Below, piece after piece: positions 6,866 to 12,753 of a stretch of DNA of 34,032 nucleotides. Position 1 is the first letter of the stretch, and each line of letters opens with the position of its first letter. The stretch lies in assembly GCA_902812365.1 (NCBI GenBank), contig CADDZC010000044.1:1-34032 (forward strand). The letters run 5' to 3'. The translations under genes were made by a program, and so were the position numbers. This DNA is from Acidobacteriota bacterium. GTDB taxonomy: Bacteria; Acidobacteriota; Terriglobia; UBA7540. Below the pieces are notes generated by a model. That model did not search any database, had not been told where the DNA came from, and worked only from the letters and a program-made list of their open reading frames with translations.

Positions 6866-8307
6866 TCAGGCCGAAGGTGCCGAGGCTCGGGCAAGGATCG
6901 CCCGCCGGGCTCGAAGGGCCGCCGCAGCCACGTCTCGATTAGGATCGCTCGACAGGCGATCCAGCAGCTTCAGGCTGGTCTCATCCCCCGTGTACATCAG
7001 CACCCAGCACAGCCTTCGGCGGATCGTGGCGTCAGGATTATCGAGGTAAGGGTAGAGCTTCTGAAGGAACGGTTTGTCGCGGAAAAGCTCTGTCAGATAA
7101 GCACTGGCGACGTCTCCCCGGAATGTCGAGCGCAAGCCGTTCACCAGATCGTTGAACCCGTTCTGATTGCCCAAGCTGGCTAAGGCAAAATCCATGGCCA
7201 GCTTGGCGCCGCCATCTTTTTCTTGGGACAAAGCCGTTTCCAGGTTCGACTCCGCTCTGGGATCGCGAATCCGCGCCAGACCCTCGGCAGGGAAGTGCGA
7301 TCCGTCTTGTCCTTGCTCGACAGCGCTTGAATAAACAGCGAGTACGAGGCGGGCCTGCCGAGGTAGGCCAAGCCCTCGAGAGCAGCCTGCCGCGTCTTCT
7401 TGTCTCCGTCCGCCGAGTACATCTGTTCAAGTCGGGCGGCGGCGGCGGAAGTCCTTAGAATACCAACGGTTACGGCCGCGCTCTGGCGCACCGCCTTTCG
7501 CGGTGAATCGAGCAGGTCCACCAGTTTGGGCCCGGCGGAGATGTCCATCAGTTTGCTGAGCGAATTCAACGCCTCGAGCGCCAAGCCCTCATCGGACGAG
7601 TGAGCGGCCTTCACCAAGTCGGGCACGGCGGCCTTGGCCATCAGGATTCCCAAGCCTTGAGCCGCTTCCCTGGCCGCTTCGATTGAGCGCTCGTCGAGCA
7701 TGGCGGTCTCAAGTGCCGAAACCACTTCCGGCGCGACCTGCACGCCCGGGTCGATTCGCCGCGTGTCGTTTTGAAAGTGGCTGGTGACATTCTTGCGCAC
7801 AAAACCCGCCAGCCCCAATTTCGGCACGTCACCGGTGTAATAGCCCGTAACGGCCTCGACGGCCAGGACTCGCACGTCCGGATCTGGATCGCGCGTGGCG
7901 GTGATCAATGCCTCCAGCGATGGCTCAGCATGGATTTCGGCCAGCCCCACCACCGCCTCGCGCCGCACCTTCGTGCTGGGATCCTGCAGGGCGGAGCGCA
8001 GGGCCGGTACCACGGCGGGATCCCCCGTCTTTCCAAGGTCTCGAGCCGCCCGAGCGCGAATGTCCGCATCGGGGCTTTTCAGCTCCTCCGCCAGGGGATT
8101 GCCGTTCTGGTTCAAGCCCTTCGGGCGCGCCGTGACTGCCCCGGAGACCCAGCAGACTAAAACCACCACGAAAGCGCGATACAGATGACCTTTACCTGAA
8201 CGCGGAGAACCCTCAAAGAAGTGGCGGCTGGGATGCCGGTGGCCGAATTCGGAATGGCCGGGATGGGATGGCCAGCCGTGCTTATGATCCGTACTTTTAC
8301 CGCTCAT
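6866..8307 (-). pseudogene. HEAT-repeat protein with N-terminal membrane anchor, frameshifted
   Basis: The gene encodes tandem HEAT/PBS-lyase-type repeats, for example DIRARAARDLGKTGDPAVVPALRSALQDPSTKVRREAVVGLAEI. It is preceded by a hydrophobic segment (about residues 41-60, YRAFVVVLVCWVSGAVTA) that is a signal peptide or anchor. From 8307 the frame is coherent until about 7300 (KDKTDRTSLP); then the repeat sequence continues in another frame (AEGLARIRDPRAESNLETALSQEKDGG...) to the TGA at 6866. The shift lies around 7285-7300. Intact, the protein would be about 480 aa. The start at 8307 is preferred because GAGG lies 6 nt before it, while the ATG at 8313 overlaps that site. The protein probably mediates protein-protein contacts in the envelope. 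Either a pseudogene or a one-base sequencing error. Confidence 0.75.
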
Positions 8308-8463
8308 GATCATCCTCAGCCGCGCGCCCGCTGCGCTCCAGCCTCATCATAGCACCGACTCGGCCGCTTGGCCCGCGACTGGACGGCTCGCTTGGCGGCG
8401 GCCGTTCGCCCCGCGGCAGAGCCTTGATAAAAAAATTTGATGCCACCACCAAGCATCTCTGAT

Positions 8464-8492
8464 TTGACAAGCCCATCAGTTTGATTTATCCT
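8464..8492 (+). promoter_or_regulatory. Sigma70-type promoter of the sulfur assimilation operon
   Basis: Perfect TTGACA (8464-8469), 17-bp spacer, TATCCT (8487-8492, 4 of 6). The predicted start near 8499 gives a leader of about 230 nt before the sulfite reductase. An inverted repeat CACCCC-GA-GGGGTG (8518-8531) lies about 20 nt into the transcript and could be an operator or an RNA hairpin. Confidence 0.7.
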
Positions 8493-8576
8493 GGCCTTGA
8501 GTGGGCAGCCAAGGGGTCACCCCGAGGGGTGGCTTCCAGGGAAGGTTTGAACGGAGTGTTTTTAACGGGCCAGACG

Positions 8577-8636
8577 ATGTGTTGTTGTTGCGGCGCTGCG
8601 GGCGTGTCGTCTGGCGCGGGGAGGTTGCTCACTTAA
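8577..8636 (+). CDS. Polycysteine leader peptide (19 aa)
   Basis: Short ORF beginning Met-Cys-Cys-Cys-Cys (ATG TGT TGT TGT TGC), then Gly/Ala/Ser-rich residues, ending at TAA 8634-8636. Four consecutive Cys codons by chance are very unlikely, and the ORF sits in the untranslated leader of a cysteine-biosynthesis operon, directly upstream of a strong terminator. The likely role is a sensor of charged cysteinyl-tRNA rather than a functional peptide. The Shine-Dalgarno for the ATG is poor. An in-frame GTG at 8556, with GGAAGG about 10 nt before it, would give a 26-aa form with the Cys run at residues 9-12. Polycysteine upstream ORFs acting as cysteine attenuators are known in mycobacteria, also before sulfite reductase operons. 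Confidence 0.7.
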   Translation: MCCCCGAAGVSSGAGRLLT

Positions 8637-8662
8637 GAGTTTAGCTTAAGATTGACCTCAAA

Positions 8663-8705
8663 AGCCCATTCGCCAGAACGTCGCGCCTGGCGAATGGGCT
8701 TTTTT
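8663..8705 (+). terminator. Intrinsic terminator in the leader, 23 nt before the sulfite reductase ATG
   Basis: A perfect 14-bp stem (8663-8676 with 8687-8700), 10-nt loop, then TTTTTATTTTTTT. No complete gene ends just upstream on this strand, and the promoter of the operon is 5' of it. It must therefore stop leader transcripts unless antitermination occurs. Confidence 0.85.
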
Positions 8706-8728
8706 ATTTTTTTGGCGCAAGGAGGCGC

Positions 8729-10432
8729 ATGACCACGACAACGCACGAGACCAAGGCCCAGCGCGCGGAACGCCTGAAGCGCGAGAAAAATCCCTGGGAG
8801 TGCCTCGACGAAATCCGCCGCTTCGCTCGCCAAGGCTACGATTCCATTCCGCCCGAATGGCTCGGGACCTACTTTCGCTGGTGGGGAGTCTACACCCAAG
8901 GGGACGGCCTCGGGGCGGTCGGAGGGCGTGGCGGCCAGGGCAACTCGACCCCGTACTTTATGGTGCGGGTCCGCGTGCCCAACGGGTTGCTGTTCGCCCA
9001 TCAACTGCGCACCGTCGCCGACTTGGCGGCACGCTACGCGCGTGGCGTCGCCGATATCACGGTGCGCCAGAACTTTCAGCTTCACTGGGTTACCATTGAG
9101 GCTCTGCCGGAACTTTTCGAATCGCTAGGACGGGCCGGCCTGACGACGATGGCGGCCTGCGGCGACGATACGCGCAACGTGACCGGCTGCCCGCTGGCCG
9201 GAATCGACGGGGACGAAATCGCCGACGCCTCGCCTCTGGTCCAACAGGTCACCCAGCTCCTGGTGGGTAATCGAGATTTCTACAACCTGCCCCGCAAATT
9301 CAAAATCTGCCTGACCGGCTGCCGCGTTTGGTGCTCGTATCCGGAGATCAACGATATCGGCCTGACGGCGTTGACGCGAACCGCGAACGGTCGGCGCGAA
9401 ACGGGTTTTTCGGTGCGCGTGGGCGGAGGGCTTTCGACCGAACCCCATTTCGCCGTGCGGCTCAACGCCTTTGTCCGCTGGAATCAGGTCCTGCCGGTGG
9501 TGAGAGGCATCGCCGAGATTTTCCGCGACTCGAGCGTCCTGCGCGAGAGTCGCGAGCGCGCCCGATTGAAATATCTTTTCCTGCGCCATGGTTGGACGAC
9601 GGAAAGCTTTCTGGAAGCGCTCGAAGACCGCCTGGGATTCCGCCTCGAGCCGGCCATCCCGGAAGACCCCCCCGCCGATGTGTGCCGCGACCACGTCGGC
9701 ATCCACCCTCAGAAACAGGAAGGCTACCGTTACGTCGGCGTGTCGGTACTCCGCGGACGGATCACGGCGGAGCAGATGCGCGCTGCCGCCCGGCTTTCCG
9801 AACAGTTCGCGAGCGGCGAGCTGCGAACCACCGGAATGCAGAACCTGATCGTGGTCAACGTGCCCGAACGGCAAGCCGAGGCCCTGGCATCGGAGCTCGA
9901 AGGCGTTGGCCTGGCGGTCGGCGGATCGCCCTTTGCTCGGGGAGCCGTGGCCTGCACGGGGACGGAATTCTGCAAGCTGGCCATCACCGAGACCAAGGGG
10001 TTTACGCGCTGGCTGGTGGAGGAGATCGAAGAGCGCCTCCCCGGTTTCGACCAGCCCCTGAAGTTGAACGTCACCGGCTGCCCCAACGGCTGCGGCCAGC
10101 ACTGGATCGCCGACATCGGCTTGGAGGGCAAGAAGCTGAAGGTGGACGGCCGGCTCGTGGACGCCTATTACTTCTCGCTCGGAGGAGGCGTCGGCAAGCA
10201 TCCGGCGTTTACCCGGCCGATCGGCTACCGCTGCCCGGCCGGTGAGGTTCCCGAAGCGATCGAGCGCCTGCTGCGCGCCTATCTGGCCGAGCGGCAGGAG
10301 GGGGAGAATTTGCGCCAATTCTTTGCCCGTCACCGCGACGAGGAGCTGCGGGCGTTCCTGGCCGGGCGGGAGCTCGAGGCGGTGGCCTGCGACCCATCCC
10401 CCGGGCGCGTGCCGCACGGCGTCGAGGCGTGA
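8729..10432 (+). CDS. Ferredoxin-type siroheme sulfite (or nitrite) reductase
   Basis: 567-aa siroheme/[4Fe-4S] enzyme performing six-electron reduction of sulfite to sulfide (or nitrite to ammonia), in the cytoplasm with ferredoxin as likely donor. It shows the two-fold NiR/SiR ferredoxin-like half domains, the siroheme-binding stretch GDDTRNVTGCP, and the cluster ligands C409-x5-C415 (CTGTEFC) and C451-x3-C455 (CPNGC). Start ATG 8729 follows AAGGAGG. I favour sulfite reduction because APS reductase and siroheme synthase follow in the same operon and the leader encodes polycysteine. Sequence alone does not separate the two substrates. The Cys-Tyr crosslink near the active site, seen in some sulfite reductases, is not something I could assign. 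Confidence 0.92.
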   Translation: MTTTTHETKAQRAERLKREKNPWECLDEIRRFARQGYDSIPPEWLGTYFRWWGVYTQGDGLGAVGGRGGQGNSTPYFMVRVRVPNGLLFAHQLRTVADLAARYARGVADITVRQNFQLHWVTIEALPELFESLGRAGLTTMAACGDDTRNVTGCPLAGIDGDEIADASPLVQQVTQLLVGNRDFYNLPRKFKICLTGCRVWCSYPEINDIGLTALTRTANGRRETGFSVRVGGGLSTEPHFAVRLNAFVRWNQVLPVVRGIAEIFRDSSVLRESRERARLKYLFLRHGWTTESFLEALEDRLGFRLEPAIPEDPPADVCRDHVGIHPQKQEGYRYVGVSVLRGRITAEQMRAAARLSEQFASGELRTTGMQNLIVVNVPERQAEALASELEGVGLAVGGSPFARGAVACTGTEFCKLAITETKGFTRWLVEEIEERLPGFDQPLKLNVTGCPNGCGQHWIADIGLEGKKLKVDGRLVDAYYFSLGGGVGKHPAFTRPIGYRCPAGEVPEAIERLLRAYLAERQEGENLRQFFARHRDEELRAFLAGRELEAVACDPSPGRVPHGVEA

Positions 10433-10542
10433 CGGGGCCGGAGCGCAGAGCGGGTTTCAAACCCCGAGGGGGACGTCGCCCGGCTGGCCGCGGGGCCGGG
10501 GCGGCAATTTTCGAACGGCTTTTCTTGACACAGGAGGGAACG

Positions 10543-11259
10543 GTGACGGCAGCAGTGGAGAAAACGGACTTACCCGCGATCGAAGCCGAAGGCTGGAGCG
10601 CCGAAGAGGTGCTGGCCTGGGGCTTTGATCGCTTCCATCCGCACCTGGCCCTGGCCTCGGCTTTCGGCGCCGAGGGTATGGTGCTGATTGACATCGCCTC
10701 GCGACTTCGCCCCGATTTCCGGCTCTTTACCCTCGACACGGGCTTTTTCTTCCCCGAAACCTACGAATTGATGGAGCGCGTCGAAGAGCGCTACGGTGTC
10801 GCGATCGAGCGCTGCCGGCCCGCCCTGTCGCCGCACGAGCAGGCACGCGCTCACGGCGAAGCCCTTTGGAGCCGCCATCCGGACCGCTGCTGCGAAATCC
10901 GCAAGGTGCTCCCGCTGCGCTCCAAGCTCGCTGAGCTGGACGCTTGGGTGACGGCGATCCGGCGCGAGCAGTCTCCGGCGCGGGCCTCAACCGCCAAGAT
11001 CGAGTGGGACGCCAAATTCGGACTGGTCAAACTTAACCCCATCGCCGATTGGACCTGGCAGGAAGTGTGGCAGTACATCCGAACCCACCGCGTTCCCTAT
11101 AACCCGCTTCACGATCGACGTTATCCCAGCATCGGCTGCACGCACTGCACCCGTCCGGTCGACGGTGGCGAGTATTCGCGCGCCGGGCGCTGGGCCGGAT
11201 TCGCCAAGCTGGAATGTGGCCTGCATGACCGCGCACCTGGGACGGCGAATGGCGGCTAG
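10543..11259 (+). CDS. cysH: Adenosine 5'-phosphosulfate (APS) reductase, CysH family
   Basis: Reduces APS to sulfite and AMP with thioredoxin or similar thiol donors. 238 aa, normal for the assimilatory [4Fe-4S] type. Ligand pairs C116-C117 (RCCEIRKV) and C199-x2-C202 (GCTHC) mark the APS- rather than PAPS-using branch. The catalytic Cys is C225 in KLECGLH. An ATP-pyrophosphatase-type fold is indicated by SAFGAEGMVLID and TLDTGFFFPETYE. I chose the GTG at 10543 because CAGGAGGGAACG immediately precedes it; an ATG at 10429 overlapping the previous gene adds 38 unlikely residues. It supplies sulfite to the enzyme encoded just upstream. ATP sulfurylase genes are not in the window. Confidence 0.93.
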   Translation: MTAAVEKTDLPAIEAEGWSAEEVLAWGFDRFHPHLALASAFGAEGMVLIDIASRLRPDFRLFTLDTGFFFPETYELMERVEERYGVAIERCRPALSPHEQARAHGEALWSRHPDRCCEIRKVLPLRSKLAELDAWVTAIRREQSPARASTAKIEWDAKFGLVKLNPIADWTWQEVWQYIRTHRVPYNPLHDRRYPSIGCTHCTRPVDGGEYSRAGRWAGFAKLECGLHDRAPGTANGG

Positions 11260-11295: not shown

Positions 11296-12733
11296 ATGAG
11301 CCTGTTTCCTGTCTTTCTGAAGCTCGAGGGACGCCCTTGCCTGGTGGTCGGGGCGGGCGAGGTGGGCGAGTCTAAAGTCGCGGGCTTGCTCGCCGCTCAG
11401 GCGCGGGTACGCGTAGTGGCGCCCGAGGCCACGGCCACCCTCCAGGAGTGGGCGCTCGCGGGAAGAGTCGATTGGGCGGCGCGCGAGTTTGAGCCGGCCG
11501 ACTTGGAGGGCGCCGCCCTCGTCGTGGTCGCGACTTCCTCGCCCGACCTGAACGCCCGCGTCTTCCGACTGGCGCGGGAGCGCCGCGTCCTCTGCAACGT
11601 CGTGGACGATCCTGCCCATTGCGACTTTTATTATCCGGCCATCGTGCGCCGTGGCGATTTGCAGATCGCCATCTCGACCGGCGGCCGCAGTCCGGCGCTC
11701 GCCCAGCGACTGCGGCAGGAACTCGAGGAGCAATTCGCACCCGAATACGCGGACTGGCTCGAAGCCTTGGGACGCGCCCGGGACGAGCTGCGGGCTCGGG
11801 ACGACCTGGACGCGGAGACGCGGCGGCGCCTCCTCCACTTCCTCGCCCGCCCCGAAAGCTTTGAGGAATTCCGCTCTGGCCGACCCGCGGAGGCTCACGG
11901 CGGATCGGCTCCGGGCGAGGAAGGGCCAGCCGGGACGGCTCACCCGGCGGCGCCCCGGGCCCGCCGAGCGCCGGGTAAAGTCTACCTGGTGGGGGCCGGG
12001 CCGGGGGATCCGGACCTGCTCACCGTGCGGGCGGCGCGGCGGCTGCGGTCGGCGGACGTCGTGCTGCACGACGATCTGGTTCCTCGGCCGGTCATCGAAC
12101 TGGCCTCGCCGCGGGCGCGGGTGATGAACGTCGGCAAGCGTTGCGGCCGCCGGCGCATCACCCAGGAAGAGATCCATGCCTTGATGATCGGCTTTGCCCG
12201 CCAGGGGCTGACGGTGGTTCGTCTCAAGGGCGGAGACCCGCTGACGTTCGGGCGGGCCGGCGAAGAAGTGCGCGCGCTGCGGCAGGCGGGCGTGGAGCTG
12301 GAGATTGTGGCGGGCGTGACCGCCGCCTCCGCCGCCGCCGCTGTGGCCGGTATCTCGCTGACCGAGCGGCGCCGGGCGTCGTCGGTGATCTTCATCACCG
12401 GCCACCATTGCGCCGAACGCTCCGGCCGCCCGCGCGGCTCCGAGTCGGGGCTGGCCGGTGGAAAACTCCCGCCAAAGGCCACGATCGTGGTGTACATGCC
12501 GGGCGACGATCTGGGCCCGCTGGCGGCCGAGTTACGGGCCGCCGGCCTCCTGGCCGAGACGCCGTGCCTGATGGTTTCGCGGCTGGCCGCCCCCGACCAG
12601 CAGTTTCGGCGCACCACCCTGGAAGGCCTGGGCCGCGCCGCGCCGCTCCCCTCGCCGAAGCTCCTCATCATCGGAGCCGTGGCCGGCACGGCCGACGAGG
12701 GGAGGGCGGAGACCGAGCCCGAACCGGAGCTGG

Positions 12734-12753
<20 letters not shown>
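11296..12753 (+). CDS. cysG: Siroheme synthase, bifunctional or trifunctional CysG type
   Basis: 485-aa fusion that makes siroheme, the cofactor of the reductase upstream. The N-terminal part (about 1-200) is precorrin-2 dehydrogenase/ferrochelatase: NAD-binding [16 protein letters not shown] and [31 protein letters not shown]. After a Pro/Ala/Gly-rich linker (about 200-225), the C-terminal part is uroporphyrinogen-III C-methyltransferase: [35 protein letters not shown] and [20 protein letters not shown]. It lies 36 bp after cysH, so probably is part of the same transcript. Its last 20 bp overlap the 3' end of the convergent ilvD. The start ATG at 11296 has only a weak Shine-Dalgarno, so translation may depend on cysH. 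Confidence 0.94.

Follow-up and report, generated by a model that had tools for sequence, protein, structure and literature searches.

The classical leaders of the trp, his, thr, ilv and leu operons consist of a short ORF, in which codons for the end product stand in a row, and of four ordered RNA strands, and they precede a biosynthetic operon. For cysteine, leader peptides were predicted in 2005 in Mycobacterium, Propionibacterium and Bifidobacterium, without terminators (PMC1262725), and the mycobacterial ones have been reported as leaderless cysteine attenuators (PMC4633059); PMC13236596, which cites Canestrari 2020 on the mycobacterial leaders, calls this translation attenuation. In Rhodobacterales, uORFC-8-2, described in 2021, puts a cysteine uORF and then an intrinsic terminator before cysS, and is predicted to act by ribosome-mediated attenuation (PMC8632094). 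In a 2010 survey almost none of the predicted acidobacterial attenuators had an assigned function (PMC2965389), and in our search of openly available full texts no account of a cysteine attenuator from Acidobacteriota came up.

The window analysed here, a whole 34-kb contig from a genome of 3.5 Mb, carries upstream of a sulfite reductase operon a leader that has every testable defining feature of a trp-type attenuator: an in-frame ORF with Cys codons, an intrinsic terminator before the first structural gene, mutually exclusive helices, and downstream genes that make cysteine (Table 1). We consider, with a probability of about 0.9, that it is a ribosome-mediated, trp-type transcription attenuator that senses charged tRNA-Cys and would in this way respond to cysteine. 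It resembles the classical leaders in the codon run, the four strands and the position before a biosynthetic operon, and differs from them in that the amino acid is cysteine and the host belongs to the Acidobacteriota, in that the ORF of most of its relatives begins only a few nucleotides into the transcript, and in that the leader is present at several unlinked sulfur operons and also at some genes that are not biosynthetic. Actinobacterial and mycobacterial Cys leaders, as described in PMC1262725 and PMC4633059, are similar in having a poly-Cys run, in being often leaderless and in preceding cys operons and a sulfurtransferase gene. The window shares with them the short poly-Cys ORF before a cys gene but does not have a leaderless start, such as 47 of 58 leaders of the present set have or come close to having; and whereas the mycobacterial leaders have no conserved terminator and are described as acting by translation attenuation, an explicit, conserved intrinsic terminator with an antiterminator is present here. 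Cys codons followed by a terminator are common to the window and uORFC-8-2, but the latter has two Cys codons and is restricted to cysS in alphaproteobacteria, while the leaders studied here usually have three or more and precede a broad range of sulfur genes, the gene in the window being a sulfite reductase and not cysS. No NCBIfam leader-peptide model matches the leaders. They form a new family within a known kind of attenuator, and belong to neither the mycobacterial nor the Rhodobacterales group. The suggestion, made in the earlier note, that no such element had been described outside mycobacteria is thus partly wrong, given the predictions for Propionibacterium and Bifidobacterium, which lack terminators, and the Rhodobacterales cysS leader, which has one.

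Table 1. Features of the leader and of the operon in the window
Feature	Position	Strand	Details	Basis
Promoter	8464-8492	+	-35 TTGACA 8464-8469, 17-nt spacer, -10 TATCCT 8487-8492	consensus scan
Extra 5' hairpin	8513-8536	+	GGGGUCACCC/GGGUGGCUUC; between promoter and leader ORF, outside the switch proper	fold
Possible upstream in-frame start, GTG 8556	8556-8576	+	adds VFLTGQT ahead of MCCCC	sequence reading
Leader peptide ORF	8577-8636	+	MCCCCGAAGVSSGAGRLLT; starts at ATG 8577, stop 8634-8636	
Four Cys codons (predicted regulatory)	8580-8591	+	TGT TGT TGT TGC	sequence
Strand 1 (protector 5' arm)	8566-8577	+	pairs with 8607-8618	inverted-repeat search
Strand 2	8607-8618	+	pairs with strand 1 in the protector; 8610-8616 pair with strand 3 in the antiterminator	inverted-repeat search
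Strand 3 (antiterminator 3' arm)	8671-8677	+	also within the terminator 5' arm	inverted-repeat search
Extended antiterminator hairpin (predicted)	8602-8686	+	-36.8 kcal/mol, with the ribosome masking all up to 8601 and strand 4 not made	
Intrinsic terminator	8660-8703	+	perfect 17-bp stem 8660-8676/8687-8703, 10-nt loop	inverted-repeat search
Terminator T-run	8700-8713	+	TTTTTTATTTTTTT; one break, at 8706	
Shine-Dalgarno of sulfite reductase	8719-8725	+	AAGGAGG	sequence
Sulfite reductase	8729-10432	+	NIR_SIR and NIR_SIR_ferr domains	domain search
PAPS/APS reductase-domain protein	10429-11259	+	CC...CxxC cysteines as in APS reductases	domain scan of 10516-11256
CysG-like siroheme synthase	11296-12753	+	NAD_binding_7, Sirohm_synth_M, TP_methylase	

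The promoter, the Met-Cys4 ORF, the operon and the three competing pairings proposed previously were all recovered in the window. The pairing proposed between 8570-8577 and 8607-8614 lies within a longer protector, 8610-8616 with 8671-8677 reappeared as the antiterminator in the inverted-repeat search, and domain searches agree with the proposed identities of the three downstream genes (sulfite reductase, APS/PAPS reductase, siroheme synthase). Two points need correction. The terminator is present, and its first T-run ends at 8705, 23 nt ahead of the sulfite reductase ATG (8729), as had been claimed, but its stem is 17 bp and not 14 bp; the four Cys codons are in place, but the ORF given as beginning at 8577 may start further upstream. 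No Shine-Dalgarno sequence is evident for ATG 8577 in the leader, while GTG 8556 has an SD-like AGGGAAGG at 8538-8545 and would give a product beginning VFLTGQTMCCCC; the leader probably starts at one of these two codons. The promoter is the sole sigma-70-like match of the consensus scan within 3 kb, and a promoter-like site also precedes the leaders of most relatives. The extra hairpin that follows it is strong, and one related leader, L006, has a different hairpin in the equivalent position.

In the window alone, the 212-nt leader folds with a z score of -4.7. The longest run of the protector was matched in only 1 of 2000 shuffles, whereas a 7-bp antiterminator of equal stability was found in 322 of 2000, so that the significance of the antiterminator comes from the comparison with relatives. 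Within its genome, the window site is the only one among the Cys-run sites that combines a four-Cys run with a downstream terminator, the other four-Cys runs having no terminator following them.

A family search of 39 genomes gave 30 loci, 26 of them with readable upstream DNA; the relatives with named records are Acidobacteria, one labelled subdivision 13 and one Terriglobia. Each of the 26 readable homologues combines a short Cys-rich ORF (for example MCCCNPAPACGGVA, MACACCCCRTTVSGHGSLPA and MEHQGCCCSCCCPISPAVG) with a terminator and the two competing pairings, and is preceded by a promoter-like site, which is weak in two or three cases. These leaders precede two quite different types of sulfite reductase. 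As strand 1 and the Cys run are not of constant length, RNAalifold on a MAFFT alignment recovered the terminator incompletely, and the helices were therefore tested by duplex permutation: strands 1 and 2, and strands 2 and 3, pair better with their own partners than with swapped ones (0 of 20000 permutations for each helix). One position of the antiterminator shows C-G replaced by U-A, G-C and G-U. The proposal of a cysteine transcription attenuator with protector, antiterminator and terminator is in this way supported by comparison, through the Cys-codon ORF, the partner-specific pairings and the position before cysteine-pathway genes.

Conservation extends beyond this family. A covariance model was trained on 16 leaders from before the other type of sulfite reductase, with the window excluded, and found the window leader (E = 5.4e-7). 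In a scan of named genomes, which gave 80 relatives of the sulfite reductase, this model matched, at E values no higher than 0.05 and with some uncertainty in the weakest cases, 41 of 57 acidobacterial loci, and none of 22 Methylomirabilota/Rokubacteria loci of the same gene, whose proteins are up to 74% identical. Some loci missed by the model (L152, L168 and L170) proved on reading to have Cys-rich leaders too, and in some acidobacterial relatives no leader was detected. The own-partner test on 36 leaders of the window's type (type 1) again gave 0 of 20000 permutations for both helices. The CTGGC:GCCAG core of the antiterminator is kept in all 30 aligned type-1 leaders, with one U-A/A-U swap beside it; there is little variation in this helix, and pair statistics are weak (30 of 500 shuffles). 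The terminator shows ten double compensatory changes among relatives (0 of 500 shuffles). Over 62 leader entries, a few of which are one leader with two identifiers, 34 distinct antiterminator helices were counted. Judged from these sequences, the switch in the window is not a product of chance.

The leaders are also constrained at the level of the codons. In 50 of 55 leaders the run is preceded by an ATG that is in frame with the Cys codons, compared with 2 and 7 for the other frames, and Cys runs may be interrupted while the frame is kept (CSCICICC, CCVCCC, CCCSCCC). Reading the TGTTGTTGT run in another frame, as a Val or Leu leader, was rejected since the starts are in the Cys frame. The leaders use TGT 223 times and TGC 100 times (UGU 69%), whereas 16 genes of the window use TGT 14 times and TGC 71 times (UGU 16%); they thus favour the codon that is rarer in the window genes, which may make stalling more sensitive. 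Of the 58 leaders whose promoter was recognised, 47 have their first in-frame ATG or GTG at most 16 nt from the -10 box (median 10.5), and the ORF is nearly leaderless in these if transcription starts 5-8 nt past the -10. The window leader is longer: its first Cys codon lies 87 nt beyond the -10, compared with about 30-50 nt in most relatives.

From these parts we infer the following behaviour in the cell. Transcription would run from just after the promoter into the short ORF with its four consecutive Cys codons. When cysteine is plentiful, the ribosome would reach the stop codon, strand 1 would pair with strand 2, strand 3 would be left free, and the terminator would form and stop transcription ahead of the sulfite reductase gene. 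When cysteine is scarce, the ribosome would stall at a UGU or UGC codon, covering strand 1 and ending short of strand 2. A standard ribosome footprint on any of the four Cys codons spans roughly 8562-8601, and so covers strand 1 and leaves strand 2 accessible. Strand 2 and strand 3, extended through the terminator loop, would then pair before strand 4 is made, and the operon would be read. Folding the RNA as it would be with a stalled ribosome (masked up to 8601, without strand 4) gives the long antiterminator of Table 1, which also uses the terminator loop. In the free full leader, with strand 4 made, the terminator fold is the more stable one (-48.4 vs -37.6), and the choice between the folds must therefore be a kinetic one, as it is in other attenuators. 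If both strand 4 and the ribosome are left out, the antiterminator and not the protector has the lowest energy, so that the switch can be off only if the protector has formed first.

The same data bear on other ways of reading the locus. Control could be exerted at translation, as PMC13236596 describes for mycobacterial Cys leaders, which have no conserved terminator hairpins (PMC1262725) and which most relatives of the window leader resemble in being nearly leaderless. However, a perfect 17-bp stem followed by a long T-run is present and conserved with compensatory changes, and the Shine-Dalgarno sequence of the sulfite reductase gene lies outside all three helices; we regard this reading as improbable. 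Somewhat less probable still is that the peptide itself is the sensor or the product, by arrest of the nascent poly-Cys chain, as a small redox or metal-binding protein, or as the precursor of a modified peptide. Poly-Cys is chemically reactive, leaders are also found before peroxiredoxin genes, and two related leaders match a Cys-rich NCBIfam model (E 0.0015 and 0.021), but these matches are under the cut-off of the model and reflect low-complexity Cys sequence, the residues that flank the Cys run differ freely from clade to clade, the tails that are conserved, such as VSSGAGRLLT, fall on RNA strand 2, and the leaders stand before a terminator with competing helices. A RiPP-like peptide in particular was rejected, its sole support being the sub-threshold low-complexity match.

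That an ordinary terminator simply follows a chance ORF, with no regulation, is very unlikely. Short ORFs and terminators are common, and in the window by itself the antiterminator does not reach significance, but the terminator cannot serve the gene upstream of it (7180-8313), which lies on the minus strand, and the arrangement, with its partner-specific pairing, is seen again in all 26 leaders of the family and more widely in the phylum; it is this conservation among homologues that leads us to reject the explanation. Riboswitches and T-boxes, which bind a ligand or a tRNA directly, commonly control sulfur genes in other bacteria. Here the conserved feature is a coding run and not an aptamer, and no Rfam family reaches the gathering threshold in the window, relaxed matches scoring far below it; a known RNA family or riboswitch was rejected on this ground, and we give direct binding as little credit as the chance ORF. 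Attenuation of transcription by a ribosome that reads the Cys codons remains by far the preferred reading.

The genes behind the leaders were surveyed by searching the class (399 genomes) and the phylum (396 genomes) with the model; some 55 matches were read, ten products being checked against Pfam and the others recognised from sequence. Cys-rich leaders precede both sulfite reductases, ATP sulfurylase and CysD (PAPS_reduct domain), as well as TauE, rhodanese-type sulfurtransferases, DsrC/TusE, a YeiH-type protein (Cons_hypoth698) and an NMT1/SsuA-like binding protein; cysteine synthase (PALP) and CobA (TP_methylase) are cases from other classes of the phylum. The target genes thus belong mostly to sulfur assimilation. 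Cys-rich leaders with a terminator also precede TonB/carboxypeptidase-regulatory receptor genes (L081-L084, L192, L196), that of L081 being divergent from a sulfite reductase leader, and the receptors perhaps serve the uptake of a sulfur compound. Cys-run leaders with a terminator stand before peroxiredoxin genes (L099, L185, L208, L210, L211, L212), suggesting that the supply of cysteine or thiols also controls a peroxide defence gene. Leaders rich in Thr, Ile and Ser, such as MSIAKKRITSKSSMSTTTTTTKKIMTASGDGRNS, precede aspartokinase genes together with a terminator (L080, L086, L087, L090, L091, L096, L182, L184, L186, L188, L190); their architecture equals that of the Cys leaders, the same model matches this second class as well, and they are probable threonine attenuators of Terriglobia. 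Because the class-wide matches are partly such threonine attenuators, the 157 of 399 genomes matched is not a count of Cys leaders.

These observations can be put together in a model that we regard as evenly balanced between right and wrong, in which Acidobacteriota have a distributed cysteine regulon operated by cis-acting attenuators and not by a single master transcription factor. Each of the unlinked poly-Cys attenuators, most of them near-leaderless, that stand before genes of sulfate activation, sulfite reduction, siroheme synthesis, cysteine synthase, sulfite export, sulfur transfer, peroxiredoxin and TonB receptors would read Cys-tRNA on its own, with parallel threonine attenuators before aspartokinase genes. 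For one class of acidobacterial attenuator, the present analysis offers a probable function together with the amino acid sensed and the genes targeted, and the TonB receptors and peroxiredoxins are flagged by their leaders as possible parts of the cysteine response. The occurrence of leaderless or nearly leaderless poly-Cys leaders in two distant phyla raises the questions of whether they had separate origins and of whether leaderless initiation or the UGU bias sharpens the sensing of cysteine. Finally, these leaders point to cysteine attenuation with a real terminator as a design at the level of the phylum, and not a mycobacterial peculiarity.
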